From a virus, in the IMG/VR virus record IMGVR_UViG_3300017751_000145, positions 1-29,106 of that record: a stretch of 29,106 nucleotides of DNA; one strand, given 5' to 3'. The position numbers were made by a program, and so were the translations under genes. Positions 2,654 through 29,106 of this stretch are shown here, in pieces. Each line of letters opens with the position of its first letter. Positions within the stretch are counted from its first letter, which is position 1. Under the pieces are notes generated by a model. The model was not told where the DNA came from. It saw only the letters and a list, made by a program, of their open reading frames with translations, and made no database searches.

Positions 2654-4261
2654 ATGCAACAAGGATTCACTCCCAAAGAGCTTCACTTCTCTGATGACGG
2701 TCGAGGCAAACTAATCAAAGGAATAAACCAAATATCTAACGCAGTAAAGTCCACACTTGGACCAAGAGGTAATACTGTACTAATAGAATCTCCTGAACAC
2801 TTACACGGAATCACAGTTACAAAAGATGGTGTAACTGTAGCTAAGTCCATATCGCTTATGGACCCGGTCGAGAACCTTGCGGTTCGTATGATGAAAGAGG
2901 CTGCAGACCGAACTGCTTCCGCAGCAGGGGATGGTACAACAACGGCTATCGTATTAGCCGAAGCAATTGTAAATGCAGGAACCGAATTAATTGACGACAC
3001 AGTCAATCGAACGGAGATTCTTAGACACCTTGTAGATGAAACCAAAGAGATAGGCAAGACGCTAAAGCTGAAAGGCAAAAAGTTAGACGACAAGAGGCTA
3101 CGTGATGTTGCCGTTATTTCAGCTAACAACGATGCCAAGATAGGCGGTATCATTGCAGACGTATACGAAAGCGTAGGGAACGATGGTGTAGTCACGGTAG
3201 AGAAAAGTAAAACATCAGCCACATATTTTGAAACCACAAAGGGGATAAAAGTAAAACGAGGATACGCATCTACTTTATTTATCAATGACCAAAAGCGTGA
3301 TGAGTGTGTCTTCGAAGACACTTATGTTTTGGTATGTGATACTGAGATTAGTAATATACTACAAATAGAAAACATTTTAAAACCAATCATTCAAGAGGGT
3401 AAGAAACTTTTGATGATTGCTCCAACCTCAACTAATGTAACAAATACATTAGCAGCTAACGTAATCAAGAATGGTCTGAAGATATGTACTATCAATCCAC
3501 CTGATTTTGGATACCGCCAACACGAACTAATGCAAGACATTGCAATTAGCGTGGGTGCTACTTACTTCAGCGAAAAAACAGGCGATGATTTGAGCTTGAT
3601 TAGTTTCAACGATTTGGGTCACTGTGCTAAGGTGATAGTTAGTCGGGACTCAACGGTCATCGTCAAAGACGATAAGGAAACCTCCACTGAAGTCTTGGAT
3701 AGAGTAGCTCAGTTGCAGGATACTCATAAAAACACCAAGAAGAAAGAAGACAAGGAATTTATCAATCAGAGGATAGCTTCCTTGTCAGGAGGTATAGGTG
3801 TAGTTTATGTGGGTGGAAATACAGACCTTGAGCAAAAAGAATTATATGACCGTGTTGATGATGCGGTATGTGCAGTTCGCTCCGCACTTGAAGAAGGTAT
3901 ACAACCCGGTGGAGGACTCACGTTATTTAATCTTCATAAAACATATTCAATCAAAAAAGATGCTGAAAAAAATTCAGCGAAAAAAATCGCTTATGCGATT
4001 TTAGATGAATCATTGAAGGCTCCACTATATCAGATTTTAGAAAACGCAGGATTAGATGCTGAAGAAGTATATAAAGACTGTAAAGGTGCATTGTATGGAT
4101 ACGATGTGAAAAACGAGAAGTACGGATACTTGATGACACTCGGAGTCATAGACCCTGTGAAAGTTACAAGACAAGCTCTGCAAAATGCAGTATCAGTAGC
4201 CGTTACTATATTATCAACCAATGCTATCGTGACTATGGCACGTAGCTATGAAAAAGAATAA
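2654..4261 (+). CDS. groEL: Phage-encoded GroEL-type chaperonin (Cpn60, group I)
   Basis: A 535-residue chaperonin, close to the 548 of E. coli GroEL. Equatorial ATP-site motifs are intact: LGPRG (35-39), VTKDG (55-59, Asp58 for Asp52), AAGDGTTTA (90-98, Asp93 for Asp87) and RVDDAV (400-405, Asp403 for the hydrolytic Asp398), then GGG at 419-421. The apical domain keeps RGY.S..F (202-209), but the residue matching Tyr203 is Leu, so substrate choice may differ. The C-terminal end DPVKVTRQALQNAVSVA (500-516) is typical; the protein stops at SYEKE and lacks the GGM tail that lines the folding chamber. It is probably a full ATP-driven folding machine for virion proteins. It is followed by a 47-codon gene and a GroES-like gene. 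Palindrome copy 3 lies within codons 218-223. Confidence 0.95.
   Translation: MQQGFTPKELHFSDDGRGKLIKGINQISNAVKSTLGPRGNTVLIESPEHLHGITVTKDGVTVAKSISLMDPVENLAVRMMKEAADRTASAAGDGTTTAIVLAEAIVNAGTELIDDTVNRTEILRHLVDETKEIGKTLKLKGKKLDDKRLRDVAVISANNDAKIGGIIADVYESVGNDGVVTVEKSKTSATYFETTKGIKVKRGYASTLFINDQKRDECVFEDTYVLVCDTEISNILQIENILKPIIQEGKKLLMIAPTSTNVTNTLAANVIKNGLKICTINPPDFGYRQHELMQDIAISVGATYFSEKTGDDLSLISFNDLGHCAKVIVSRDSTVIVKDDKETSTEVLDRVAQLQDTHKNTKKKEDKEFINQRIASLSGGIGVVYVGGNTDLEQKELYDRVDDAVCAVRSALEEGIQPGGGLTLFNLHKTYSIKKDAEKNSAKKIAYAILDESLKAPLYQILENAGLDAEEVYKDCKGALYGYDVKNEKYGYLMTLGVIDPVKVTRQALQNAVSVAVTILSTNAIVTMARSYEKE
3306..3321. repeat. 16-bp palindrome, copy 3 of 5, inside groEL (centre CG)
   Basis: GTGTCTTCGAAGACAC is a perfect palindrome within codons for CVFEDT (residues 218-223 of the chaperonin). 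It begins at the second base of a codon. The amino acids fit the normal chaperonin family pattern here, so the element is accommodated by codon choice. Confidence 0.9.
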
Positions 4262-8918: not shown

Positions 8919-9043
8919 TGGCTAAACTACACATCGCCACTTATATCAAAAAGACTTATAAGAAAAGACCGGGAGTGCATTCAAAGAATGCATCAAAAGG
9001 TCAATCCGGTTATAAAAAAAAATATAGAGGGCAAGGAAAATGA
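8918..9043 (+). CDS. Tiny basic protein, 41 aa
   Basis: It is joined by start/stop overlaps on both sides (TAATG at 8916-8920, ATGA at 9040-9043). The sequence KRPGVHSKNASKGQSGYKKK (16-35), then YRGQGK, matches the RPG.HSK...GY.KKYRGQG pattern I recall from many marine phage late modules. It is very basic and has no known role. Confidence 0.75.
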   Translation: MAKLHIATYIKKTYKKRPGVHSKNASKGQSGYKKKYRGQGK

Positions 9044-9474
9044 TACCATCAGAAATTAGAAAAATTATAATACACTGTTCTGCGACAAGAGCAGGAGACG
9101 ATTCCGTAGATGCTGAAGTTATTGATAAATGGCACAAAGCAAGAGGATGGAAAGGAATAGGATACCACTTTGTAATTCTTATAGACGGAACAATTCAAAC
9201 AGGTAGAAAAATAAATGTTGTTGGAGCTCACACAAAAGGTTTGAATAGTGAATCTTGGGGGATATGTTACGTAGGTGGAGTTGAACAAAATGGCAAAACT
9301 CCAAAAGACACAAGAACTGAAAAACAAAAAGACTCTTTAGCATACCTTTTGTACTTCCTGAAGTTACTTGCACCTAACGCTACCATACACGGACACAGAG
9401 ATTTTTCAGATAAAGCGTGTCCAAGTTTTGATGCTACTGAAGAGTACAAATCAGAAAATTGGAAAAAGCTATGA
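9040..9474 (+). CDS. Endolysin: N-acetylmuramoyl-L-alanine amidase, T7 lysozyme type
   Basis: An Amidase_2 (PGRP-like) domain fills the whole 144 residues. Zinc ligands fit T7 lysozyme: His12 (IIHCSAT), His119 (HGHRD) and Cys127 (KACPSF), with the same eight-residue spacing from His to Cys. Catalytic Tyr42 (GIGYHF) and Lys125 are present. GAHTKGLNSESWGICYVGG (62-80) is the conserved core. It cleaves the bond between MurNAc and L-Ala of peptidoglycan at the end of infection. It has no signal peptide, so it needs the holin encoded immediately downstream, whose ATG overlaps its stop. In T7 the homologue also inhibits phage RNA polymerase; no such polymerase is seen here. Confidence 0.93.
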   Translation: MIPSEIRKIIIHCSATRAGDDSVDAEVIDKWHKARGWKGIGYHFVILIDGTIQTGRKINVVGAHTKGLNSESWGICYVGGVEQNGKTPKDTRTEKQKDSLAYLLYFLKLLAPNATIHGHRDFSDKACPSFDATEEYKSENWKKL

Positions 9475-9869
9475 AAGAGATATTAAAAAAGATATTTGGA
9501 CTTGATAACTTAGGTCAGAAAGTTGGAGACCTTGTTGATAGGTTTGTTCAAACCAAAGAAGAAAAAGCTGAGTTTGAAAAAGAACTTACACAGATATTCA
9601 TTGAAGCTGAAAAAGATATGCAACAAAACGTAACGGAACGATGGAAGGCTGATATGGCTTCAAGCGGTTCGTGGCTTTCAAAGAATGTAAGACCATTGGT
9701 TTTGTTGTTCTTAGTAGTATCAACTGTAGTGATGGTGTTTATAGATTCAGGTGCTATAAAATTTAACGTAGAAGAAAATTGGGTGGACTTACTTCAGATA
9801 GTTTTAATCACTGTGATTTCAGCATATTTTGGTGGAAGGTCGTTCGAAAAGATTAAAAATAAAAAATAG
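9471..9869 (+). CDS. Holin (three-TM/GTA-type family candidate), 132 aa
   Basis: ATG 9471 overlaps the endolysin stop (ATGA); an upstream in-frame TTG at 9459 is rejected. A charged amphipathic N-terminal half (EEKAEFEKELTQIFIEAEKD, 29-48) leads to RWKADMASSGSWLSKNVRPL (about 57-76), typical of the family of three-TM holins, then two clear membrane segments (about 75-92 and 104-122) and a basic tail. It probably makes the inner-membrane lesion that releases the amidase. The stop codon abuts the next promoter. Confidence 0.75.
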   Translation: MKEILKKIFGLDNLGQKVGDLVDRFVQTKEEKAEFEKELTQIFIEAEKDMQQNVTERWKADMASSGSWLSKNVRPLVLLFLVVSTVVMVFIDSGAIKFNVEENWVDLLQIVLITVISAYFGGRSFEKIKNKK

Positions 9870-11545: not shown

Positions 11546-11820
11546 ATACAAAAGAAACTAAATTAAAAATAATTGAAGCAGGTCATCAGGCAGTAGAGCA
11601 ACTTATAAAGGTAGCAAAAGAAAAAATAATAAAACCTGACCCTGAAGATGATTTAGCTGCAGACAGATTAAAGAACGCAGCAGCTACAAAAAAACTTGCA
11701 ATCTTTGATGCTTTTGAAATACTCAAAAGAGTTGAAGAGGAAAGAGAGATTCTTGAGGGAGGCACAAGTAATTCTAAGATAGATACAAAACAAGGGTTTG
11801 CAGAAAGAAGGTCTAAATAA
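11542..11820 (+). CDS. Small helical protein; terminase small subunit candidate, 92 aa
   Basis: An all-helical, charged protein (IIEAGHQAVEQLIKVAKEKI at 10-29, then DDLAADRLKNAAATKKLAIF at about 36-55). It overlaps the preceding stop by four bases and ends one base before the terminase large subunit start. The position right before terL and the helical make-up are the only reasons to suggest the DNA-recognition subunit of the packaging motor; no helix-turn-helix is convincing. Confidence 0.5.
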   Translation: MNTKETKLKIIEAGHQAVEQLIKVAKEKIIKPDPEDDLAADRLKNAAATKKLAIFDAFEILKRVEEEREILEGGTSNSKIDTKQGFAERRSK

Positions 11821-11821
11821 T

Positions 11822-14026
11822 ATGTATAAGGTAGTCCAAGATTGGATACCTAAAAGCGTTGTAACCAACAAGAATAGAAATAAGTCTTGGATATATGGTT
11901 ACAATCAACAGTACGATGTTATTATTATATCAAAGACCGGAGAGATAGGAGATGTAGTCGATATTGCATCACTTAAAATAGCTCTACCCAAAGAACCAAA
12001 AGAGTGTCTTCAAAGACACTCAGATAAAAAGAAACAGTATTGGGAAAGACAAGAGCTACCAAAACCTTTAAATAGAATATCATCCATCTTTCAGTGGAAT
12101 GAAATGCCATCTGACTTCAAGTCAAGATGGGTGGATTATATAGAAGCTGAGTTTGACAATAGAGAGCTTGGCTTTTGGTTTATGAATAATGGTAAACCAA
12201 CTTATATAACCGGAGCTCATTATATGTATTTGCAATGGACTAACATTGATGTTGGTTATCCTGAATACAGAGAAGCTAATAGATTATTATATATTTTTTG
12301 GGAAGCGTGTAAAGCAGACAAAAGAAGTTTCGGAATGATATATCTAAAAATTAGACGTTCAGGATTTTCTTTTATGTCTTCTTCAGAGTGTGTGAACACA
12401 GGTACTTTAGTTAAGGATTCTCGTGTAGGTATTTTATCTAAAACAGGAGCAGATGCTAAAAAAATGTTTACTGATAAAGTTGTTCCCATCAACAGTAGAC
12501 TTCCATTCTTTTTCAAACCTATAATGGATGGAATGGATAAACCTAAAACAGAGTTAGCTTACAGAGTACCTGCGTCAAAGATTACTAAAAAGAATATGTA
12601 TGATGTAGAAGATGATGAGATTCAAGGACTTGATACTACTATAGATTGGAAAAATACAGACGACAACAGTTATGATGGAGAGAAACTTTTGTTACTTGTA
12701 CACGATGAAAGTGGTAAATGGTTGAAACCAAATAACATCCTTAACAATTGGCGAGTTACAAAAACCTGTTTGCGTTTAGGTAGTAAGATTATTGGCAAAT
12801 GTATGATGGGGTCTACATCAAATGCGTTAAGCAAAGGTGGAGATAATTTTAAAAAACTATTTTACGATTCTGATATAACAAAACGAAACGCTAATGGTCA
12901 GACTAAAAGCGGTTTATATTCGCTATTCATTCCTATGGAATGGAATATGGAAGGATTCATTGACAGGTATGGAATGCCTGTTCTTGACAATCCTATTGAA
13001 CCCATTGAAGGAGTAGATGGAGAATACATAGACCAAAGTGCATTGAACTATTGGGAGAATGAAGTTGAGTCTTTAAGGAACGACCCTGATGCATTAAATG
13101 AATACTATAGACAATTCCCACGAACTGAGTCTCACGCTTTTAGAGATGAAAGTAAACAATCATTGTTTAATTTAACTAAGATATACCAACAGATAGATTA
13201 TAATGACGCAATGATTACAGAACAATATGTAACACGTGGTTCTTTTTCGTGGAAAAATGGAATCAAAGATACACAAGTAATTTTTTCTCCTGATAACAGG
13301 GGAAGGTTTTACATAACTTGGGTTCCAAATAAAAATTTACAAAACAACTATTACACTAAACACGGAGTTAGGTATCCGGGCAACGAACATATAGGTGCGT
13401 TTGGGTGTGACTCTTACGATATTAGTGGAACAGTTGGAGGTGTAGGTTCTAATGGAGCTTTACACGGATTAACTAAATTTAGTATGGAAGAGGCACCATC
13501 TAATGAGTTTTTTTTAGAATACATTGCAAGACCTCAAACGGCTGAGATATTTTTTGAAGACGTATTGATGGCTTGTGTATTTTACGGAATGCCTATATTA
13601 ATAGAGAATAACAAACCAAGATTACTATACCATTTTAAAAACAGAGGGTACAGAGGATTTGCTATGAACAGACCTGATAAGATATTTACTAAACTATCTA
13701 AAACAGAAAAAGAGTTAGGAGGGATACCAAACTCAAGTGAAGATGTAAAACAAGCTCACGCTGCTGCAATAGAATCATATATAGAAAATTTTGTAGGTTT
13801 AAGGTCTGATGAAGATATGAGTTCAATGGCTTTTAATAGAACCTTAGAAGATTGGGCAAAGTTTGATATTAGCAACAGAACTAAATATGATGCTTCTATA
13901 AGCTCAGGTTTAGCAGTAATGGCTTGTCAAAAGCACCTTTATCAACCTGAAAGAAAAGAGTCAAGAATTATGATTAACTTTGCAAGGTATAGTAATACAG
14001 GCAAAACAAGTCAGATAATTAGATGA
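11822..14026 (+). CDS. terL: Terminase large subunit (packaging ATPase/nuclease)
   Basis: The start is set at ATG 11822, one base after the upstream stop, giving 734 residues; an upstream in-frame start (11798) would overlap the previous gene. ATPase motifs: KIRRSGFSF (176-184, Walker A-type), LLLLVHDE (289-296, Walker B with catalytic Glu) and GSTSNALSKGG (330-340, coupling). RNase H-like nuclease motifs: GAFGCDSYD (525-533), ILIENN (592-597) and SSEDVKQAH (638-646), giving the expected Asp/Glu/Asp. FMNNGKPTYITGAHYMYLQW (120-139) is a conserved N-terminal feature in related marine phages. It drives DNA into the capsid through the portal encoded next, with an ATGA overlap. Palindrome copy 4 lies in codons 61-66. 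Confidence 0.93.
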   Translation: MYKVVQDWIPKSVVTNKNRNKSWIYGYNQQYDVIIISKTGEIGDVVDIASLKIALPKEPKECLQRHSDKKKQYWERQELPKPLNRISSIFQWNEMPSDFKSRWVDYIEAEFDNRELGFWFMNNGKPTYITGAHYMYLQWTNIDVGYPEYREANRLLYIFWEACKADKRSFGMIYLKIRRSGFSFMSSSECVNTGTLVKDSRVGILSKTGADAKKMFTDKVVPINSRLPFFFKPIMDGMDKPKTELAYRVPASKITKKNMYDVEDDEIQGLDTTIDWKNTDDNSYDGEKLLLLVHDESGKWLKPNNILNNWRVTKTCLRLGSKIIGKCMMGSTSNALSKGGDNFKKLFYDSDITKRNANGQTKSGLYSLFIPMEWNMEGFIDRYGMPVLDNPIEPIEGVDGEYIDQSALNYWENEVESLRNDPDALNEYYRQFPRTESHAFRDESKQSLFNLTKIYQQIDYNDAMITEQYVTRGSFSWKNGIKDTQVIFSPDNRGRFYITWVPNKNLQNNYYTKHGVRYPGNEHIGAFGCDSYDISGTVGGVGSNGALHGLTKFSMEEAPSNEFFLEYIARPQTAEIFFEDVLMACVFYGMPILIENNKPRLLYHFKNRGYRGFAMNRPDKIFTKLSKTEKELGGIPNSSEDVKQAHAAAIESYIENFVGLRSDEDMSSMAFNRTLEDWAKFDISNRTKYDASISSGLAVMACQKHLYQPERKESRIMINFARYSNTGKTSQIIR
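12004..12019. repeat. 16-bp palindrome, copy 4 of 5, inside terL (centre CA)
   Basis: GTGTCTTCAAAGACAC, extended by A.GAG/CTC to nine-base arms, lies over codons for ECLQRH (61-66). It begins at the third base of a codon, a different phase from the copy in groEL, so protein sequence does not explain the match. Confidence 0.9.
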
Positions 14027-16458
14027 AAGATATTAAAATAAACATTTCATCTGCAGGATTTCCAAGTCAATTTGTGTCAGATGCAGAAAAAGCTACTGAC
14101 GAGTATGGATTGATGATAGGTCAAGCTATTCAATATGAATGGTTTCGTAAAGACGGAAACGGTTGCAGATTCTATGACCAATGGCGAGAGTTTCATAGGT
14201 TAAGACTTTATGCAAGAGGCGAACAATCCATAAGAAAATATAAAGATGAATTAGCTATTGATGGCGATTTATCTTACTTAAACTTAGATTGGACTCCTGT
14301 TCCGGTAATTCCAAAGTTTGTTGATATTGTTGTCAACGGAATGGCAGACCGTTTATTTAAAGTAAAGGCATATGCACAAGATGCAATGTCTCAAGCCAAG
14401 CGTTCTAAGTATCAAGATATGATAGAAGGACAGATGGCAGCTAAAGACCAATTGGAAATTATTCAAAAGAAAAGTGGGTATGACCCATTTATAATGCCTT
14501 CAGAAGAACTTCCTAAAAGCGATGAAGAGCTTTCCCTGTATATGCAGTTAAACTATAAACCTGCAATTGAGATTGCTGAAGAAGAAGCAATCAATACTAT
14601 ATTAGATGAGAATCATTATATAGATTTAAGAAAAAGATTTGATTATGACCTTACCACATTAGGAATTGGTGTAGCTAAACATGAGTTCTTAAAAGGTTCA
14701 GGGGTTGAAGTTTCATATGTTGACCCTGCAAATATCGTTTACAGTTATACGGAGGACCCTCATTTTAAAGATTGTTTTTATTGGGGAGAAGTAAAAACTC
14801 TACCGATTACAGAGCTGCTTAAAATAGACCCTTCATTAACTACATCTGACTTAGAAGAAATATCTAAGTATAGTCAATCGTGGTATGACTATTACAATGT
14901 AGCACAGTTTTATGAGAATGATATTTTCTATAGAGATACTGTAACGCTTCTTTACTTTAATTATAAAACCACTCAAAAGATGGTTTATAAAAAGAAAGTA
15001 ATGGCTACAGGTGGTAATAAAGTTATTGAGAAAGATGATAGTTTTGACCCACCGGTTGAAGTAATGGAAGAGGGTAACTTTGAAAAGTTTGAAAAAACTA
15101 TTGACGTATGGTATGATGGGGTAATGGTAATGGGAACAAACATTGTTTTGAAGTGGGAACTTGCTAAGAATATGGTCAGACCAAAATCTACAAGCCAACA
15201 CGCTTTACCTAATTATGTAGCAGTTGCACCAAGAATGTACAAAGGTGTGTTAGAGTCTTTAGTAAGACGTATGATTCCATTTGCGGATTTAATACAAATG
15301 ACACACTTGAAGTTACAACAAGTTATTGCAAGAGTAGTTCCTGATGGAGTTTACATTGACGCAGACGGATTGAGTGAAGTTGACTTAGGAACCGGAGCTG
15401 CCTATAATCCTGAAGATGCATTAAGATTATATTTCCAAACCGGTAGTGTGATTGGCAGAAGCTATACTCAGGATGGAGATTACAATCAAGGTAAAACTCC
15501 TATTCAACAACTTACTTCAAACTCAGGTGCATCAAAAACACAAATGCTTATTACTAATTATAATCATTATTTGAATATGATTAGAACCGTAACAGGACTT
15601 AATGAAGCACGAGACGCAAGTACACCTGACCCTAACTCTTTAGTAGGTCTACAAAAACTTGCAGCATTAAATTCAAATGTAGCTACAAGACATATACTCG
15701 ATGGTAGCTTGTATATATTTAGAAGTTTAGCAGAAGCTCTTACTTATAGAGTAGCTGATATTTTAGAATATGCAGACTTTAAGGATGACTTTGCTAATAA
15801 AATTGGAAAGTATAATGTTTCATTATTAAATGAAATAACTGACCTATACATATATGACTTTGGTATATTCATTGAAGTAGCACCTGACGAAGAACAAAAA
15901 GCTCAACTTGAGCAAAACATTCAAATGGCATTGTCTAAACAAGATATTAATTTAGAAGACGCTATTGACATTAGAGAAATTAAAAATCTAAAACTTGCTA
16001 ATCAGTTGTTGAAATTAAAACGTCAACAAAAGAAAGATAGAGAAGAGCAGATGAAAATGCAGCAACAAGCAATGACTGCACAACAAAATCTAAAGTCTCA
16101 AGAGATGGCTGCACAATTAGCTATGAAGAAACAAGAGATGGAGCTTCAGGGTAAGATGCAGTTAAAACAAGCAGAGATTGCATTTGAAATCGAAAAGATG
16201 AATAATGAAGCTAAGTTAAAATCTCAATTAATGGCGGAAGAGTTTAATTACAATCAGCAGTTGAGAAACATTTCAGAAACTGCTTTACAACAGAGAGAAT
16301 CAGAAAGAGAAGGAGCAAAAGAAAAAAGAATCTCTCAACAAAACACACAACAGTCAAAATTAATTAATCAACGTAAAAACAATTTGCCACCTCAAGTATT
16401 TGAATCAAATGAGGATAGTTTAGACGGCTTCGATTTAGCCGAGTTTTCTCCAAGATAA
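14023..16458 (+). CDS. Portal protein, 811 aa
   Basis: It is placed between terL (four-base overlap) and the capsid genes. Large size, the N-terminal RFYDQWREFHRLRLYARGEQ (49-68) and VPVIPKFVDIVVNGMADRLF (93-112) match the portal type of crAss-like and related marine podoviruses. Portals form a dodecameric ring at one capsid vertex, where terminase docks and the tail joins. The C-terminal region (about 640-775) is a long Gln/Lys/Met-rich coiled coil, longer than the barrel seen in many portals; it may extend into the capsid or contact internal proteins. The final 30 residues are acidic. Function assignment is firm by position and moderate by sequence. Confidence 0.82.
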   Translation: MKDIKINISSAGFPSQFVSDAEKATDEYGLMIGQAIQYEWFRKDGNGCRFYDQWREFHRLRLYARGEQSIRKYKDELAIDGDLSYLNLDWTPVPVIPKFVDIVVNGMADRLFKVKAYAQDAMSQAKRSKYQDMIEGQMAAKDQLEIIQKKSGYDPFIMPSEELPKSDEELSLYMQLNYKPAIEIAEEEAINTILDENHYIDLRKRFDYDLTTLGIGVAKHEFLKGSGVEVSYVDPANIVYSYTEDPHFKDCFYWGEVKTLPITELLKIDPSLTTSDLEEISKYSQSWYDYYNVAQFYENDIFYRDTVTLLYFNYKTTQKMVYKKKVMATGGNKVIEKDDSFDPPVEVMEEGNFEKFEKTIDVWYDGVMVMGTNIVLKWELAKNMVRPKSTSQHALPNYVAVAPRMYKGVLESLVRRMIPFADLIQMTHLKLQQVIARVVPDGVYIDADGLSEVDLGTGAAYNPEDALRLYFQTGSVIGRSYTQDGDYNQGKTPIQQLTSNSGASKTQMLITNYNHYLNMIRTVTGLNEARDASTPDPNSLVGLQKLAALNSNVATRHILDGSLYIFRSLAEALTYRVADILEYADFKDDFANKIGKYNVSLLNEITDLYIYDFGIFIEVAPDEEQKAQLEQNIQMALSKQDINLEDAIDIREIKNLKLANQLLKLKRQQKKDREEQMKMQQQAMTAQQNLKSQEMAAQLAMKKQEMELQGKMQLKQAEIAFEIEKMNNEAKLKSQLMAEEFNYNQQLRNISETALQQRESEREGAKEKRISQQNTQQSKLINQRKNNLPPQVFESNEDSLDGFDLAEFSPR

Positions 16459-19997: not shown

Positions 19998-20029
19998 AGG
20001 GGGGTTTAACGACCCCTCTTTTTTTTTGT
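19998..20029 (+). terminator. Intrinsic terminator before the connector genes
   Basis: AGGGG (19998-20002) pairs with CCCCT (20013-20017), with weaker extension, and a long T-tract follows (20019-20027). A promoter element begins two to four bases after it, so a complete transcription boundary lies here. Confidence 0.8.
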
Positions 20030-20030
20030 G

Positions 20031-20038
20031 TATCTTTG
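20031..20038 (+). promoter_or_regulatory. -7 promoter element for the tail/connector genes
   Basis: TATCTTTG followed by TAACAAAG, just after the terminator and 17 bases before ATG 20056. The T-rich terminator tail ending in TTTTG occupies the upstream region. Confidence 0.7.
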
Positions 20039-20055
20039 TAACAAAGTATTTACAG

Positions 20056-21015
20056 ATGATAAATTCGGTTAGGAACACAGTATTGTCTATACTTAATAAA
20101 AATAATTACGGATACATTTCTCCCTCTGATTTTAATTTGTTTGCCAAACAAGCACAGTTAGATATATTTGAGGATTATTTTTATCAGTATAACTATCAGC
20201 TTAATAAAGAAAACCAAAGAGCGTCAGGTACAGGATATGCTGATATTACTAAAGGTTATGAAGAAGTGATAAACATTTTTTCAGAAACCAAGTTTCTATT
20301 GCACAATGTAAATAACAAATTTTTTACACCAAGTTTAGTCACTACAAATGATGACTATTACCTTTTAAATAAAGTATTAGTTTACACTCGACTATTAACA
20401 TCAGGTGTAAATACCGCAACACAGTTAGGAGCTTTAGTAGATAATAACGCTAACTTTGTAGCAGCAGGAGTACAGGTTGGAGATATAGTGGGAAACACCA
20501 CAAATAATCAAACTGCATTTGTTTCTAATGTTACTATAAGTACACTTATCTTGGTAGATGAGTTTGGAAATGCTGCAGACATATTTGCCAACTTTCCTGA
20601 AGGCTATGTAATATATGATGATAGTGTTGTTAACGAAGCTGAAAAGGTAACGCAAAGTAAAATTACAATGCTTAACAATTCTTTGTTAACTGCTCCATCT
20701 ACAATGTTTCCTGCATATACTCAGCAAGAACCTGTTTTATCTTTATTTCCTGCAAGTATAAATACTATCGGTGCAGTTCTATGTCAATACATAAGGTATC
20801 CAAATGACCCCAAGTGGACATATATTAACCTTTCAGGTGGAGAGCCTACGTTTGACCAATCGCAACCGGACTTTCAAGATTTTGAGTTAACTATATCTGA
20901 TGAACCAACATTGGTATTGAAGATATTGCAGTATTCAGGTATGTCAATAAGAGAAGTATCTGCGGTGCAGTTTGCTCAAGGATTAGAACAAAAAGAAGAC
21001 CAAGACGAAAAATAA
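20056..21015 (+). CDS. Connector/tail protein with inserted beta domain, 319 aa
   Basis: The start is ATG 20056, after the promoter; earlier in-frame starts lie on or before the -7 element. The helical N-terminus (MINSVRNTVLSILNKNNYG, 1-19; then SPSDFNLFAKQAQLDIFEDY, 22-41) and the acidic Gln/Glu C-terminus (LEQKEDQDEK) frame a central beta domain at 126-188 that matches residues 41-97 of the 7732-8199 protein. Position between capsid and tail genes suggests a head-tail connector or ring component of a podovirus-type tail. I cannot assign it to a precise ring. Confidence 0.7.
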   Translation: MINSVRNTVLSILNKNNYGYISPSDFNLFAKQAQLDIFEDYFYQYNYQLNKENQRASGTGYADITKGYEEVINIFSETKFLLHNVNNKFFTPSLVTTNDDYYLLNKVLVYTRLLTSGVNTATQLGALVDNNANFVAAGVQVGDIVGNTTNNQTAFVSNVTISTLILVDEFGNAADIFANFPEGYVIYDDSVVNEAEKVTQSKITMLNNSLLTAPSTMFPAYTQQEPVLSLFPASINTIGAVLCQYIRYPNDPKWTYINLSGGEPTFDQSQPDFQDFELTISDEPTLVLKILQYSGMSIREVSAVQFAQGLEQKEDQDEK

Positions 21016-21021
21016 TAAACT

Positions 21022-21945
21022 ATGCCTTATATATCACAATATCAGTATTACGAAAATGGTGGGAACGCACCCGAAAACGAAAATTGGGGTTCTTATCAAT
21101 ATGTTTCGTTGTACGATATAGTTAACAACTTTATGTTGATGTATGCAGGTAATCATTCTTTAATTAACAACGAGGAAAGATATAAGGTTTTATTTCACGC
21201 AAAACGAGGAATACAAGAACTAAATTATGATGCGTTTAAAGAAATAAAAATTTTACAACTTACTGTATGTAACACATTAAGGTATGTGCTTCCATCAGAC
21301 TTTGTTAATTGGGTTAGAATATCTGTGTATAAAAACGGTTTGCTCTATCCTTTGACTGAAAACATACAAACAAATTGGAGCAGTGCTTATCTACAAGATA
21401 ATGACTGTAGAATTTTATTTGACCAAGATGGGAACGCATTAAGTCCTCAGTATTCAAACATAGATGTTGATAGAATAATGGGTAGTAAAAAATCCATATA
21501 CCTAAATGCTAACAATCCGTTTCACGGATATGAAGGGTATTGTTGTGATGGGATGTGGTATTTTGATTATGAGATAGGTGCACGTTTTGGTTTGAACACT
21601 GAAACGGCAAACGCAAACCCTACTTTCAAGATTGACAAAAAAGGTGGAGTAATAAACTTTAGTTCGGATATGGCTAATCAAAGTGTTATTCTCGAATATG
21701 TATCTGATGGAATGGAAAATGGAGACAATACAGAAATCAGTGTAAATAAATTATTTGAGGATTACATATATGCTTATATAGAATATGCCATACTTAACTC
21801 TAAGTTAGGAGTGCAAGAATACATTGTTGCAAGAACAAAAAAGAGACGAGCTGCACTTTTAAGAAACGCAAAAATTAGAATGAGTAACATACATCCGGGA
21901 AGACTCTTAATGAATTTAAGAGGTCGGGATAAATGGCTAAAGTAA
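21022..21945 (+). CDS. Ring/tail tubular-type connector protein, 307 aa
   Basis: It starts six bases after the previous stop. The segment NEERYKVLFHAKRGIQELNY (about 49-68), then LPSDFVNWVRIS (about 90-101), and a basic C-terminus (RTKKRRAALLRNAKIRMSN, then HPGRLLMNLRG) fit the family of ring or tail-tube adaptor proteins of crAss-like phages, functionally like P22 gp4 or T7 gp11. It would join the portal to the tail nozzle encoded next. The middle has aromatic- and Cys-containing strands (GYCCDGMWYFDYE). Assigned by position and pattern, not by search. Confidence 0.7.
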   Translation: MPYISQYQYYENGGNAPENENWGSYQYVSLYDIVNNFMLMYAGNHSLINNEERYKVLFHAKRGIQELNYDAFKEIKILQLTVCNTLRYVLPSDFVNWVRISVYKNGLLYPLTENIQTNWSSAYLQDNDCRILFDQDGNALSPQYSNIDVDRIMGSKKSIYLNANNPFHGYEGYCCDGMWYFDYEIGARFGLNTETANANPTFKIDKKGGVINFSSDMANQSVILEYVSDGMENGDNTEISVNKLFEDYIYAYIEYAILNSKLGVQEYIVARTKKRRAALLRNAKIRMSNIHPGRLLMNLRGRDKWLK

Positions 21946-21946
21946 T

Positions 21947-24900
21947 ATGGCTAACGTACAAAGAAACTTTATAAAAGGTGTAATGAATAAAAGTCTCGAT
22001 GAGAGACTTTTGCCTAATGGTCAATACGTTGACGCATTAAACGTACGTTTAGGTTCTACAGAAGATTCTGAAATAGGTTCTGTAGAAAACAGTAAAGGTA
22101 ACTCTCAACTTACCTCTCTTGAATACAACGGAAATGTAGTTGGTCAAACAGGTCAAGCCAAATGTATTGGTGCTTATGAAGACGGTGCAAATGAAACTTT
22201 GTATTGGTTTGTTCACGACCCTGATTTTCAATCGAGTCCTACAAAAAAAATTGATTTAATAGTTTCTTTAAATGTACAAACAAATGTATTGACATACCAC
22301 ATTATAAGCGTGGATGATGGGGGTGGTATCAATACAACTTTAAATTTTAACGACACATATTTAATCACAGGTGTAAATCTTGTAGACAACACACTATTGT
22401 TTTTTACTGATGATTTGAATCCTCCTCGTGTAATAAACAGAACTAAAAACTACCCTAACCCTGTAGCGTTAGTAGATGGGTTTACACCTAACTCTATTCT
22501 TGTTATTAAAAAACCACCTTTAAATTCTCCTAATGTAGTAGCTCAACCCACTTCTTCTCAGAACAATTTTTTAGAAGATAGGTTTGTTTGCTTTGCATAC
22601 AGATACAAATATGCAGATGGAGAATACTCTGCAACTTCACAGTTTTCAAACCCTGCGTTTTTACCCGGTGCATTTGATTATAGTTTTGCTACAGGATTAA
22701 ATGAGGGTATGTTAAACATTGCAAATCAAGCTGCCATAGAATATAATTCAGGAGATGATTTGGTTGTAGGTATAGATTTATTGTGGAAGGACAATGCCAC
22801 AGGATTAATACGTGTAATAGAAAAGTTAGATAAAAGTGTGTTAGGCTTAATTAATAACACCAACTATACTTACACATTTAGCAACAGTAAAGTATTTACA
22901 GTTCTACCTGATAGTGAAATTTTAAGATTATATGATAATGTTCCACGTTTAGCACAGGCTCAAACTATTATGGGCAACAGGTTAATGTATGGAGATTATT
23001 TAGAGCAATATAATTTAGTATCAAAATCAGGGTTTCCACTTAACTTAGATTATACAGTAGAAAAAATATCTGCTGATGTTGGATTGTCTGAATTAGAAGA
23101 TGAACTAACGACAGGTAATTATTTAATAGATGGTAATCAATCTTCAAACAATGCGGTAATTACTTTCAAAGACATAGGTACATTTGACTTAAAAGCCGGT
23201 GGTTCTCTCGACTTTCAAATAGTTTTTGAGCATTCTGCATTCTCAGGTCAAGCACCTTTCCCTACACAAGAAACAGGACAGTCTGAGATAAACTTTCAAT
23301 ATGTTTTACCTCAAGATTTTGCAAGTGCTTTTGAACTCGCAACAAGTACAGACTTTATTGAGAAAGTAGGAACCATAACTAACATTGAGCCTGTTTCAAC
23401 GTCTTGTGATGGAAGTACCTTTACGGATTTATTTAATTGTATCATCCCTCAAACATTAGACACTTTAGAAAAATATGAAAGCGGTATAGACGCAGTGGGA
23501 GAACCAATTAGAATTATTTCAAGTCCGGGTTCAGATGATATAGGTTTCCAACTACTTGCAATGAGTTTTGTAGACGACCCTACAGGAGCTGCTATAACTC
23601 AAACTGTGTATGAATACTATAGTGTAATAAGTGCAGGTGGAACATACCAAGAATTAGGAGACCCAAAAAGTTTACATAGTAACAGAAGTTACGAGGTTGG
23701 CATAATTTATATGGATGAGTTTAATCGTGCCACAACCGCATTAGTGAGTGATAACAATACTATTCACGTTCCTTGTTCAGATTCAGAACGTGCAAATTCA
23801 ATTAGAGTAACTATCCCTCCAACACAACAAGCTCCTGAGTGGGCACGTAGATATAAGTTTTGTATAAAAGCAAACAAAGAAAATTACTTTAATGTGTTTT
23901 CTTCTTTCTTTTTCAGAGACCCAACAACTTCAGCAGATTACTTTTTATTAGAAGGTCAAAACTCTCGTAAAGTAGAGGAGGGAGATATACTTACAGTAAA
24001 AGCAGACACAAATGGACCTTTACGTAGATGTGCTAATGCAACAGTATTAGAAAAGAAATCACAAGCTGCAGACTTTTTAGGAACTGAAGATGAAGGAGCT
24101 CCACCTCTTGACCCCGATGGTGCGGTCATCCCTATACCGGCAGGAGTGTATATGAAGTTGAGGGCTAATGAGTTTTCTACTACAGTACCTGAATTACCTA
24201 CAGTAAACTTTGGAGAAATAAGTAGTAAAGGAAGTGGTTGTAGAACTGTTCGCTATCCTATACAAATAGAAGACCCTCAGACTGCCGGTACTTTTATTGA
24301 TTACACGATACCTGCAGGTAGTAGAATTAGAATCGTTATTGACAACTACAGAAGAGGTAACACAGATAAACCATTTGGTGGAGTAAGTAAAAAAATATGG
24401 TTTGTAGATGCAACTTTTACTGCTTCTCAAGACTATCCAAATTTTAGAGATTGGTTTAATGGAGACAATGTATCATTGGCTTTAGAACAACAAAGCGATA
24501 ATGAAGGAACAGGTGTTTCCGGACCAAACTACAACCCTGTACTTGACGGAGCTTTGGGTAGTTGTGAAGCAAGTGAAATCTCTTGTGTGTTTCAAACTGC
24601 TGCTGCTTCAGGACAAGATACAGACACTTTCACAGTAAAAAGCTCAAAAGGTTATTCAGGTAGTAATAAAAACGCAAGGTTAAAAGTAAGAATAGAGGTT
24701 TTAAGAAGCACCTCTTTTATTGCTTTTGAAACAGAACCTCAAGACGCTCAACCTGATGTTTGGTTCGAAAGCTCACAATCTTATGAAATTGCTCAAGCAA
24801 ATAGTTGTGTGTTTACATTTGACGTATCAGGAGCAGAAACAAATCCTATACAATTTGACTATACAGATTTAGCAGGACTTCCTGCATCTGTAATTTTACA

Positions 24901-27900
24901 ACCGGGAACAAACGGACAAGCAGTTGGAGAGTGTGGCTCTGCTTCTATAAACCCATCTACTCCGGCATCTCAAGCAACCACAACAATTACAAGTGCATCT
25001 CAAGCTGAAGGAACGCATCTTGGTAACGTACAAAATCAAACTACAACAGACCCTGCAATTATAGACACGGCATTCTTTAACTGCTATGCTTTTGGTAATG
25101 GAGTTGAAAGCTATGTTATTAGAGATGCTATCGCTAAAAATGAAATAGCTTTAGGAAACAGAGTTACATCTACATCTGCTCAAGACTATCAAGAAATTAG
25201 AAGGTTTTCAGATATTACATATAGCGGTGTATTTAATGACGAATCAAACGTCAACAAACTAAATGAGTTTAACTTAGGTTTATTAAACTTCAAATCATTA
25301 GAAGAAACCTATGGTCCTATCTATCTTATAGATGGAAGAGAAACAGACATATTGGTTTTACAGGAAGATAAAATATCTTATGTTTTAACCGGAAAAAATT
25401 TATTATCCGATTCAACAGGGGGTGGAAGTGTATCTTCTGTACCTGAAGTGTTGGGTACTCAGATAGCTCGTATTGAAGAATATGGTATTAGCTTTCATCC
25501 TGAAAGTTATGCTAAATGGGGAGCTAACAAATTCTTTACTGATGCCAAGCGAGGAGCAGTTATTCAGCTGAGAGGTTCATCTGCACAAAACGAACAATTG
25601 TCCGTAATATCTGAAGCAGGGATGCGTGGTTGGTTTAGGGATTTATTTTCTTCATCTTTTAATACACAAAAATTAGGTGGGTTTGACCCATATATGAATG
25701 AATATGTATTAAGCTCAAACACTGAGCTTGTGCCTGAAATTGTTGAATGTATTGATTGTGGTATATCGAGAACTGTTATAGCAACAATCACACAAGATGT
25801 AAACTTCTGTGTAAATGTAGGTGCATTGGTTGGAGACTCAATAGTTACATATAATGTTATTGGTGCTAATCAAGACAACTTTAGCATATCTGCTACGTAT
25901 GACGGAACCACAGTAACTTCCGGTCCAACAGGAGTTTCAGGAAGTCTTACTGTAGTTAAAGATGATATTGCAGTTGATGAAGTAGAAATACAAGTTACAT
26001 CTACCGGTTCTACGCAATTAGAAATTACAGTCGAGTGTCCGTTTGCTCAAGAAATAACTATAATTCAAGTTTGTTACTCTCTTGATGCGGATGCCGGAGA
26101 ATTTATTCATAATGAATATAGGTGGGCAGATGGAGCATTTAACTCTCCATTACAATCTGAGCAAGTAGAATTAGTATCGGGTGTAAGCAACCCACTTATT
26201 TCTCAATACTCACAAGTTACAGGACCACAAGGCGGAGGATTTATTCCGGCTGATGGTGCTACTATTAGTATAATATCTAACAGAATACCTCCTATTGATG
26301 ACTATGTATTTGACCCTGCAGTTGATGAGCTTAGATATTTAAGAACCAACACGTTCTTTGCTAACACTCCGAATGATATGGCTGCATTACTTACTGCTTC
26401 AAACAATGCAACTCCGATTACAGGAGGACCAAATCAATTTGAAGCACAATTCACTATGCCGTCAACTAATGACGAGTATTTGTATTTAATATACAATTAT
26501 CGTAGAGCTACAGAAGTTCAATTATGTGCAGGTACAAATATATTCTCAGTTTGTTGCGAGTGTACTGAAGAGAATTTAATTGTAAGACAATGTCGTCAAG
26601 ATGTTCCTGCGGTAAGTAATCAATATATAATAGCTCAAACTGCCGGTTTAGTTCCCGGAGTGTTTGTAACTATTGACCAAGCTGATTCTGATTGTGTATT
26701 TGAAGTTATTACCACAACTGAAGACAGTGTGAATGCTACTGTAACTTCAGTAAGAAACGACATAACAGATTGTGATGAAGTCTGTCAGCAGTATATAATT
26801 ACAAACAATAGCACAACAAGTTCGTTAGGAGCTACATATGTAGACTGTGATGACGATGATGTTTCATTTGCATTGAATCCTCAACAATCCGAAACGGTGT
26901 GTGCCAAAGTGTTTAACATCACTCCCGGTCCGGGCATAAATTACTCTATAAGTCTACAAAATTGTGAATGTCAAACCCCTGAGCCACCTAATAATTTTGA
27001 CGTAAGACAATGTAGATTAGATGGTGTGATAGTAAATGAAGTTGTTTCAGGAATACCGGGTGTACAAACAGGCTCGTTTGTAACCCTTACTTCTCCGGCA
27101 GATTGTGTATATGAAGTGTTGGGTCAAACAGGTCAAACTCCAAGTGCAAGTATAAATCAACTATTAAACATTACATCTTGTACAGATGTATGTCAACAAT
27201 ACACAGTATTCAATAATAGTCCTGACCAATCTCACACTCTTGATTTTATTACTTGTGAAGATGAGGGAGACCAAGTTGTTGTTGGTATTGGTCAAACAGT
27301 AGTGTTATGTATGAAGGATATTATTGGAACTCCTTCTGCGGAACTTGACATAACTTTAGACAACTGTCTGTGCAATCAAAACTTTTATGACGCTCAACTT
27401 TGTGAGATAAGTGCAGTCACTGATGTCCCTCTAAATGTTGACCCTCTTGTTGTTGTGGCAGACCCAAATAATGAATTAGCGATAGGATACCACGTATTTA
27501 TTAATGGTTGTACCTATGAAATACAAGCTACTTCAAGTGGTCCTGCAACCGCTACATATTCTTCGTTTAGTGCTTCATTTAATTGTAATGACGCTTGTAA
27601 TACTTATTTAATAAATAACGTAACCGCATTCACGTGGACATTAAATTATAAAGATTGTAACGGAGCTTCTCAAACCGAAAACATATCTCCGGGTGCAACA
27701 ATAGATAGATGTATAAGCGAATGGACAGGAGGACAACCTGCAGGAGTTGTGATTAGACATAAATCTTGTGGTTGTAATTTAGAACAAAACTTAGTTTTAA
27801 GAAAGTGTAGAGAAGATGGTGTAATTACAGAAGTTATTGCTCCGAACGACACAGGTGCTATAGTTGTAGGAGACTTTGTTATCATAGCAAGTGACCCTGA

Positions 27901-29106
27901 TTGTCCTTATGAAGTGGTTGAAGTAACTTTTGATTTTCCAAATGCAACAATACAAGGCTCACTAAGTATAACAGATTGTAGTGATGTTTGTCAAACTTAC
28001 ACATTAGAAAATACAACTAACAGTGTAAAAGCGTTAGAGTACAAAGACTGTAATGGTGTAACTACAGGTACTTCTATAGACCCTTTTAGCACTATTACTC
28101 TTTGTTTAACTGAAATGGTAACAGACCCAACTATTGATTGGTTAAATATAAATCTTGTTGGATGTTCTTGTTTAAATATAAAAATTCAACAGTGTAGATT
28201 AGATGGAGTTGTTGAGCAAGAGATTTTGACCAACACTCTCAACGCAAGTGTAGGAGACTTTATATCTATTGATGCTGACCCTAATTGTGCTTGGGAAGTA
28301 ATCGAGTTAACTATTGATGGAGTTACAGGTCCTGATGCAGTGGCTTTACTAAACATAAACGACTGTAATGAAGTTTGCCAAACTTACACTTTAACAAATG
28401 TAGGCACCGGTATAATTTCAGTTACTTATATTGATTGCGATAACAATTCACAAACCATTGGTGTTGAAGCAGGAATCCCTCAAACCATCTGTGCTAAAGA
28501 TATAACTAATGTACCTGATATTACAGTTGCTTTAACTGATTGTACTTGTACAATTGTTCCAAACGACAAATGGTTAATTCAACTTTGTTTAGACTCTGTA
28601 TTATTCCCTTCAGGTGGAATAACTAAGGTAATAGAGGCTCCAAGCGGTTTGCTTTCTGTAGGAGATTTTGTTTCAATACAAAACTTTAGTCCTCAACCAC
28701 CTCAACCAAACAATGCAGACTGTGCGTGGCAGGTTATTGGAACTTCTGAAAGCAATCCAACTGAAACACTTAAAAACAAATTAAGTATAACTGATTGTAC
28801 AGACAACTGTGTAACTTACGCATTTGCTCTTAATCAAGGTGCTCAACCTGTAACAATAGAATACATAGATTGTGACGGTAATACGCAAATAAATACTCTT
28901 GTTAGTGGACAACCACAACAAAACTTTATTTGTCTGAAGTCTGTTGTTTCTCTATCAGGAGACACAAATAACTTAAACGCTTCTCTTTATAATTGTGGAT
29001 GTTTGACTAAAAAACAACTTCTACTTTGTGAGGGAGGTACAACTTCTGCTCCTGTTCCAACTCAATCCGTAATAGTGGATGACCCTACATTTGCTATTGA
29101 CATAGG
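21947..29106 (+). CDS. Giant tail protein: nozzle-like core with Cys-rich repeats, open at right edge
   Basis: An uninterrupted frame from ATG 21947 reaches the window end (at least 2386 residues). The N-terminus NFIKGVMNKSLDERLLPNGQ (7-26), then YVDALNVRLGSTEDSEIG, is the opening of podovirus tail-nozzle or stabilising proteins (functional counterparts of P22 gp10 and T7 gp12). The first ~1270 residues are beta-rich with aromatic and Asp turns, including GGFDPYMNEYVLSS near 25676-25718. Next come beta domains (about 25740-26550), and from 26573 onwards Cys-rich tandem repeats of 129-147 residues. Fusing a nozzle core with long surface repeats would put host-contact modules on the tail. The ATG lies one base after the previous stop. 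Confidence 0.8.
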   Translation, partial: MANVQRNFIKGVMNKSLDERLLPNGQYVDALNVRLGSTEDSEIGSVENSKGNSQLTSLEYNGNVVGQTGQAKCIGAYEDGANETLYWFVHDPDFQSSPTKKIDLIVSLNVQTNVLTYHIISVDDGGGINTTLNFNDTYLITGVNLVDNTLLFFTDDLNPPRVINRTKNYPNPVALVDGFTPNSILVIKKPPLNSPNVVAQPTSSQNNFLEDRFVCFAYRYKYADGEYSATSQFSNPAFLPGAFDYSFATGLNEGMLNIANQAAIEYNSGDDLVVGIDLLWKDNATGLIRVIEKLDKSVLGLINNTNYTYTFSNSKVFTVLPDSEILRLYDNVPRLAQAQTIMGNRLMYGDYLEQYNLVSKSGFPLNLDYTVEKISADVGLSELEDELTTGNYLIDGNQSSNNAVITFKDIGTFDLKAGGSLDFQIVFEHSAFSGQAPFPTQETGQSEINFQYVLPQDFASAFELATSTDFIEKVGTITNIEPVSTSCDGSTFTDLFNCIIPQTLDTLEKYESGIDAVGEPIRIISSPGSDDIGFQLLAMSFVDDPTGAAITQTVYEYYSVISAGGTYQELGDPKSLHSNRSYEVGIIYMDEFNRATTALVSDNNTIHVPCSDSERANSIRVTIPPTQQAPEWARRYKFCIKANKENYFNVFSSFFFRDPTTSADYFLLEGQNSRKVEEGDILTVKADTNGPLRRCANATVLEKKSQAADFLGTEDEGAPPLDPDGAVIPIPAGVYMKLRANEFSTTVPELPTVNFGEISSKGSGCRTVRYPIQIEDPQTAGTFIDYTIPAGSRIRIVIDNYRRGNTDKPFGGVSKKIWFVDATFTASQDYPNFRDWFNGDNVSLALEQQSDNEGTGVSGPNYNPVLDGALGSCEASEISCVFQTAAASGQDTDTFTVKSSKGYSGSNKNARLKVRIEVLRSTSFIAFETEPQDAQPDVWFESSQSYEIAQANSCVFTFDVSGAETNPIQFDYTDLAGLPASVILQPGTNGQAVGECGSASINPSTPASQATTTITSASQAEGTHLGNVQNQTTTDPAIIDTAFFNCYAFGNGVESYVIRDAIAKNEIALGNRVTSTSAQDYQEIRRFSDITYSGVFNDESNVNKLNEFNLGLLNFKSLEETYGPIYLIDGRETDILVLQEDKISYVLTGKNLLSDSTGGGSVSSVPEVLGTQIARIEEYGISFHPESYAKWGANKFFTDAKRGAVIQLRGSSAQNEQLSVISEAGMRGWFRDLFSSSFNTQKLGGFDPYMNEYVLSSNTELVPEIVECIDCGISRTVIATITQDVNFCVNVGALVGDSIVTYNVIGANQDNFSISATYDGTTVTSGPTGVSGSLTVVKDDIAVDEVEIQVTSTGSTQLEITVECPFAQEITIIQVCYSLDADAGEFIHNEYRWADGAFNSPLQSEQVELVSGVSNPLISQYSQVTGPQGGGFIPADGATISIISNRIPPIDDYVFDPAVDELRYLRTNTFFANTPNDMAALLTASNNATPITGGPNQFEAQFTMPSTNDEYLYLIYNYRRATEVQLCAGTNIFSVCCECTEENLIVRQCRQDVPAVSNQYIIAQTAGLVPGVFVTIDQADSDCVFEVITTTEDSVNATVTSVRNDITDCDEVCQQYIITNNSTTSSLGATYVDCDDDDVSFALNPQQSETVCAKVFNITPGPGINYSISLQNCECQTPEPPNNFDVRQCRLDGVIVNEVVSGIPGVQTGSFVTLTSPADCVYEVLGQTGQTPSASINQLLNITSCTDVCQQYTVFNNSPDQSHTLDFITCEDEGDQVVVGIGQTVVLCMKDIIGTPSAELDITLDNCLCNQNFYDAQLCEISAVTDVPLNVDPLVVVADPNNELAIGYHVFINGCTYEIQATSSGPATATYSSFSASFNCNDACNTYLINNVTAFTWTLNYKDCNGASQTENISPGATIDRCISEWTGGQPAGVVIRHKSCGCNLEQNLVLRKCREDGVITEVIAPNDTGAIVVGDFVIIASDPDCPYEVVEVTFDFPNATIQGSLSITDCSDVCQTYTLENTTNSVKALEYKDCNGVTTGTSIDPFSTITLCLTEMVTDPTIDWLNINLVGCSCLNIKIQQCRLDGVVEQEILTNTLNASVGDFISIDADPNCAWEVIELTIDGVTGPDAVALLNINDCNEVCQTYTLTNVGTGIISVTYIDCDNNSQTIGVEAGIPQTICAKDITNVPDITVALTDCTCTIVPNDKWLIQLCLDSVLFPSGGITKVIEAPSGLLSVGDFVSIQNFSPQPPQPNNADCAWQVIGTSESNPTETLKNKLSITDCTDNCVTYAFALNQGAQPVTIEYIDCDGNTQINTLVSGQPQQNFICLKSVVSLSGDTNNLNASLYNCGCLTKKQLLLCEGGTTSAPVPTQSVIVDDPTFAIDI
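26573..29106 (+). repeat. Six full and one partial Cys-rich protein repeats
   Basis: Units start at 26573, 26996, 27383, 27791, 28178, 28571 and 29012, with lengths of 141, 129, 136, 129, 131 and 147 residues. The shared order is C-R-x-D-G-V, then VGDFV.I, DC.YEV, an ITDC.DVCQTYTL.N segment, Y.DC, IC.K and a closing C.C. About eight Cys recur at fixed places. DNA similarity between units is low, so they are old duplications kept at protein level. The array continues past the window. Confidence 0.85.

Follow-up and report, generated by a model that had tools for sequence, protein, structure and literature searches.

The open reading frame at the right end of the window (the whole 29,106-nucleotide stretch analysed) encodes a crAss-like tail muzzle, which would be the main chain of a split protein and the distal gate of a podoviral tail. 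The array of cysteine-rich repeats attached to it probably forms a set of adhesive appendages, stiffened by disulfides, that surround the tip of the tail. The C-terminus of the muzzle, located at a break in its propeller, would bear a string of about 12 to 13 eight-cysteine all-beta domains, while a separate gene, two genes downstream, would supply the missing propeller segment. With six muzzle copies per tail, a number taken from crAss001, six flexible strings would be displayed around the tail tip and would attach to the surface of the bacterium or to the glycans that coat it, like the LamG lectin and Big_9/cadherin domains present at this site in sister phages. We infer the hexamer, the disulfides, the exposure of the array, its adhesive function and the target of adhesion.

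The muzzle gene (21947..29104, plus strand) is a single open frame of 2386 codons, starting with an ATG at 21947 and still open at its 3' end, the same length as given in the earlier note. Since the window is the whole virus record, the truncation is caused by the contig end. The full gene is found in L002, a phage from IMG/VR with 93% identity across the window. The muzzle core (residues 1–1262; 21947..25732, plus strand) was delimited by PF25731, phrog_14478 and alignment. The Pfam family PF25731 (crAss_MUZ) matches residues 5–235 with an E-value of 3.2e-11 and 42.5 bits (curated cut-off 27), and phrog_14478 matches residues 5–764 (E 2.9e-231, 771.8 bits). Judged by these matches, the first 1540 residues form a tail muzzle of the crAss-like type, the counterpart of the T7 nozzle, which bears out the nozzle-type N-terminus noticed earlier. 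Cultured Cellulophaga phages encode homologues with the annotation of virion structural protein.

In crAss001, the muzzle sits at the end of the tail as a hexamer and comprises a ring-joining domain and a propeller similar to those of the T7 nozzle, and a gate (PMC10172136). This protein, gp44 (1371 aa, PF25731), resembles the muzzle described here in its N-terminal sequence, its position in the tail block and its C-terminal propeller segment, which is recognisable as gene C (see below). The window muzzle is instead divided between two genes and carries a PPC-like domain and the eight-cysteine array at the break; length variation of gp44 was reported in its crass and IG2 domains (PMC10172136). 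The T7 nozzle gp12 and tail tubular protein B are alike in their ring-joining domain and beta-propeller, a likeness drawn by way of gp44 (PMC10172136), but have no array. Between window and L002, the protein has evolved fastest at residues 801–1040 of its core (24347–25066 of the window; dN/dS 0.43), a stretch possibly located in the crass domain, which is thought to touch the cell surface.

The muzzle gene follows the terminase large subunit (11798..14026; phrog_6681, E 4e-175), the portal protein (14023..16458; phrog_6547, E 2e-134), capsid-region genes and, directly upstream, two virion structural genes (20026..21945; phrog_14543 and phrog_13977), the coordinates given all being on the plus strand. 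It is found in the block of TerL, portal, ring-type structural genes and muzzle. The block order matches that of the Manatee Spring phage ctfjg026 and elemovirus and is shared only in part with Cellulophaga phage phi13:2; the two upstream structural genes and the muzzle are also arranged as in elemovirus and ctfjg026 (L082, L084). The muzzles of both the Flavobacterium elemovirus and ctfjg026 have a homologous core; the former is unsplit and without array, the latter is 46% identical and has a single half unit. The nearest cultured relatives (Pachyviridae, Pervagoviridae, Elemovirus) are placed outside the order Crassvirales in the NCBI taxonomy, and the source phage is of the flavobacteria type. 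A phage-encoded GroEL-like chaperonin (2654–4261, plus strand; Cpn60, E 2.9e-59), 60% identical to the ctfjg026 copy and 38% to the elemovirus copies, may help giant virion proteins to fold. A lysis pair is encoded at 9040–9869 (plus strand), in which an Amidase_2 endolysin (E 1.6e-13) precedes a GTA_holin_3TM-like protein (E 1.2e-5). Muzzle genes of the clade were also found in a record labelled as an Aenigmatarchaeota MAG chromosome (L087, CP070801.1) and in one labelled as an Aliivibrio MAG contig (L086, JAAGZR010000248.1), which are probably mis-binned or mis-joined phage contigs.

The muzzle core ends with a conserved FDPYMNEYVLS region. At this point, unsplit muzzles (elemovirus, phi38:1, Gundel_1 and crAss001 gp44) run into the last propeller segment, which is missing from the main open reading frame of the clade and is found as a separate gene, gene C, two genes downstream (L002:20738-21553). 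The gene C family profile matches the C-termini of unsplit muzzles, namely elemovirus residues 1238–1471 (E 3e-43), phi38:1 (3e-51), Gundel_1 (3e-30) and crAss001 gp44 residues 1199–1289 (3e-13; hhalign probability 94%). L002 and some 60 relatives have a separate gene C; it is separate in every fetched relative where it was found except L014, in which it is fused to gene B. On this evidence from sequence, the muzzle gene of the clade is split into two genes; the window ends before gene C, so the split of its own muzzle is deduced from L002. The term "fused tail protein" of the earlier note is not supported by the comparison with unsplit muzzles. In the second structural model the propeller part has a poor pLDDT, and the geometry of the break is derived from sequence. 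An origin of the extension by stop-codon recoding or readthrough was rejected, as the muzzle genes nearly all end in TAA and the frame that follows begins at an ATG of its own, as a separate gene. In L050 (2228-6907), one in-frame TAA breaks the muzzle frame; it may stem from an error in sequencing or mark a genuine break.

Gene B (L002:19782-20705 and equivalents; 160–730 aa) has a conserved start, MATxxxYYLNxPSLxxATAVF, and a highly variable, often cysteine-rich C-terminus, which in L002 is without Pfam match. In L071 and L076 the start of gene B is joined to the muzzle, and in L014 genes B and C are fused; from these fusions it is argued that the muzzle and the products of genes B and C form one assembly. 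The muzzle of Cellulophaga phage phi13:2 (Baltivirus, Pachyviridae; gp120) is split at the same place and has an adhesin-type domain at its C-terminus, with gp121 as gene C. It differs in that a Big_9/cadherin domain replaces the cysteine units, identity is about 29%, and gene C follows directly, without gene B. No description of such a split, with its break serving as an adhesin site, turned up in a limited literature search.

Between the core and the array, two further segments are found. In an AF2 model of the break region (residues 1041–1677), residues ~1267–1368 (25745..26050, plus strand) form a beta-sandwich with a pLDDT >90, resembling PPC and collagen-binding domains. The VIA matches (Z 10–12, rmsd 2.2–2.6 over 93–100 aa) include the ColG CBD, the Tk-SP C-terminal domain and SIDT1 and GOLD domains; the modelled likeness to PPC domains is one of shared fold only. 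The second segment (residues ~1369–1539; 26051..26563, plus strand) is beta-rich and ends in a conserved CCxC, which is the end of the protein in many relatives. Among 82 muzzles, the CCxC is followed by nothing in 46, by full cysteine units in 14, by half units in 5 and by other modules in 17, counts that are approximate, since a few of the "nothing" cases are contigs ending at that point and the 14 include L039, whose single unit is located in its downstream gene B. A LamG lectin domain is found at the site in L010 (E 1.3e-13) and Big_9/cadherin in phi13:2 (E 7e-21), each in one phage among those examined, the other modules being mostly uncharacterised. In L062, the muzzle extension module is also present in its own gene B (86% identity over 107 aa). 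On the core tree, the four module labels require 19 or more changes, a count made approximate by contig ends and near-copies. A short recurrent module, SYNCxxGxCxDPGDGxGxYxxLxxCxxxC, without Pfam match, is found at the C-termini of both muzzle and gene B; muzzle extensions of this type occur in L029, L030, L049, L051, L052, L057, L062, L063, L067 and L068. As far as these comparisons go, one site of the muzzle exchanges modules among relatives, and because sister phages swap different sticky domains there, the site probably determines which surface is grabbed. Since the array hangs from the propeller break and is replaced by LamG, Big_9 or nothing in sister phages, it would be an appendage and not part of the tube, so that tuning of tail length by repeat number is unlikely.

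The array in the window consists of six full units on the plus strand, R1 (residues 1540–1677; 26564..26977), R2 (26978..27373), R3 (27374..27775), R4 (27776..28171), R5 (28172..28549) and R6 (28550..29002), and the start of a seventh, R7 (29003..29104), which is cut by the contig end and goes on in L002. First cysteines at residues 1549, 1689, 1819, 1954, 2083, 2214 and 2361 give spacings of 140, 130, 135, 129, 131 and 147 residues, in exact agreement with the six full repeats, the seventh beginning and the 129–147 residues counted before. A profile built from units of other phages alone, leaving out window and L002, detects all six units (E 1.6e-29, 3.1e-32, 1.2e-24, 5.6e-35, 3.5e-33 and 6.4e-24 for R1 to R6), so the array is not a product of chance. 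After residue 1500, 53 of the 71 residues of cysteine in the protein are found. Across 38 units taken from 12 loci, each of the eight cysteine columns is filled in 35 or more units (at least 92%), and three columns are filled in every unit; the cysteine positions are conserved in relatives, so the outcome that the earlier note named as speaking against its proposal did not arise.

Reading past the window end, as had been suggested, the L002 muzzle has 3256 aa and 13 profile matches, of which about 10 are near full length and the distal ones degenerate; the whole array can be estimated at about 12–13 units. Full-unit copy number among relatives is 0, 1, 2, 3, 4 or about 13. Repeat number varies widely, as had been expected, and may plausibly tune host range. 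Window units are only 45–54% identical to each other in DNA and 23–39% in protein, and TRF reports no tandem array in the window; the units are therefore old and not fresh slippage products. In the group of L008, L011, L012, L014 and L018, first, middle and last units tend to cluster by position. Between window and L002, the array has 75 residue substitutions, none at a cysteine, and a dN/dS of 0.24 (core 0.14); the ratio indicates purifying selection, with no positive selection seen in the array. Substitutions are not concentrated in loops (30/399 loop versus 39/412 strand or helix positions, p 0.38), and the variable host-contact loops proposed earlier find no support in this comparison. Among the other proteins of the fetched loci, the array was found only in gene B of L039 and as a fragment in a broken frame of L069.

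AF2 modelling of R4–R5 with 27 two-unit rows gave a mean pLDDT of 92.7 and a pTM of 0.66, and the units are predicted to be well-defined all-beta domains. Each unit has two parts, an N-half with two cysteines and a six-cysteine C-half, which is also found on its own in L019, L059, L064, L082 and L042 (E 8e-8 to 3e-12). Solitary N-half-like stretches have weaker support (E 0.0003–0.01). Fold searches with the R4–R5 model gave weak, jelly-roll-like half-unit matches (best VIA Z 4.3 over 58 aa) and no Foldseek match at E <= 0.001. No consistent match was obtained for 43 units searched member by member against Pfam and PHROGs (best scattered E 0.0018), and none for the unit profile against PDB sequences. 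Searches of 50,697 phage records by tblastn, with the array and with a single unit as queries, and of 84,980 prokaryote genomes with the array returned nothing convincing. The units share no conserved stretch of 7–10 residues. Going by the libraries searched, the eight-cysteine unit is an undescribed domain family.

Most likely, the eight cysteines form four disulfides outside the cell, which is suggested by their near invariance, the lack of cysteine changes among the 75 substitutions and the precedent of the crAss001 tail, which is stabilised by disulfides (PMC10172136). This precedent also speaks against the view that cysteine-rich repeats are unusual in phage virions. Six cysteines per half unit and eight per full unit would fit three and four disulfides; cysteine co-loss in the degenerate L002 units is too sparse to infer pairings. 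The search for a thiol oxidoreductase near the array gave only an insignificant AhpC/TSA match in a 329-aa structural protein (E 0.057), and no other candidate among the window frames tested. Binding of zinc or an Fe-S cluster, which the earlier note had allowed, would suit the number of cysteines and the CxxxC and CxC spacings of every unit, but is improbable: histidine makes up 0.4% of the array, no zinc-ribbon or Fe-S family was matched, the modelled unit is an extended beta domain and disulfides are a known feature of crAss-like tails (PMC10172136).

That the array is adhesive has to be weighed against a purely mechanical or protective function, as a flexible spacer, stability collar or ruler without a ligand of its own and with cysteines for stability only. 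Units that diverge freely outside the cysteines and core positions, the lack of hypervariable loops and the absence of the array from many sister phages would all fit such an element. It is nevertheless rather unlikely, as LamG and Big_9, domains typical of adhesion proteins, occupy this site in other phages, and a required structural part would not tolerate the swap or loss seen in sister phages. Instead of a host receptor, the target of adhesion could be a surface or glycan in the environment, such as algal polysaccharide, mucus or particles. Such a role has been proposed for Ig-like phage adhesins, and binding to mucus or epithelium has been reported for Crassvirales that carry them (PMC13370021); the acidic, Thr/Val/Asn-rich composition of the array points the same way. 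Its location on a tail-tip protein and not on the capsid speaks against this reading, which is somewhat less probable still than a mechanical role. The gut-phage adhesins are likewise modular chains of beta-domains on crAss-like and other Bacteroidota phages, but consist of BACON, PKD and Ig domains and not of the eight-cysteine unit (PMC13370021). For nozzle-type proteins, receptor binding has a precedent in TTPA and TTPB of Vibrio phage OWB, which bind a bacterial receptor (PMC7241545). An assembly chimera of a muzzle with an unrelated repetitive gene, conceivable where a contig end cuts the frame, is refuted by L002, where the gene is built alike and continues to a stop codon, and by at least 10 loci with muzzle and full units in frame; it can practically be dismissed.

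The muzzle family as such is already known, and the split with its adhesin site and the eight-cysteine unit appear to be the new parts. Tentatively, and with the odds rather against it, this environmental crAss-like clade might be seen as having a two-chain propeller whose break is a docking site, which would make the tail gate a plug-in adhesin platform with lectin, cadherin-like and eight-cysteine domains exchanged with the neighbouring gene. If so, the same protein would gate the genome and recognise a surface, and binding could directly trigger opening. Little is known about the host receptors of crAss-like phages or about the triggers at their tail tip. Exchange of adhesive domains at one muzzle site would make surface recognition by the muzzle directly testable, and the cultured phi13:2 has a recognisable domain at this site.
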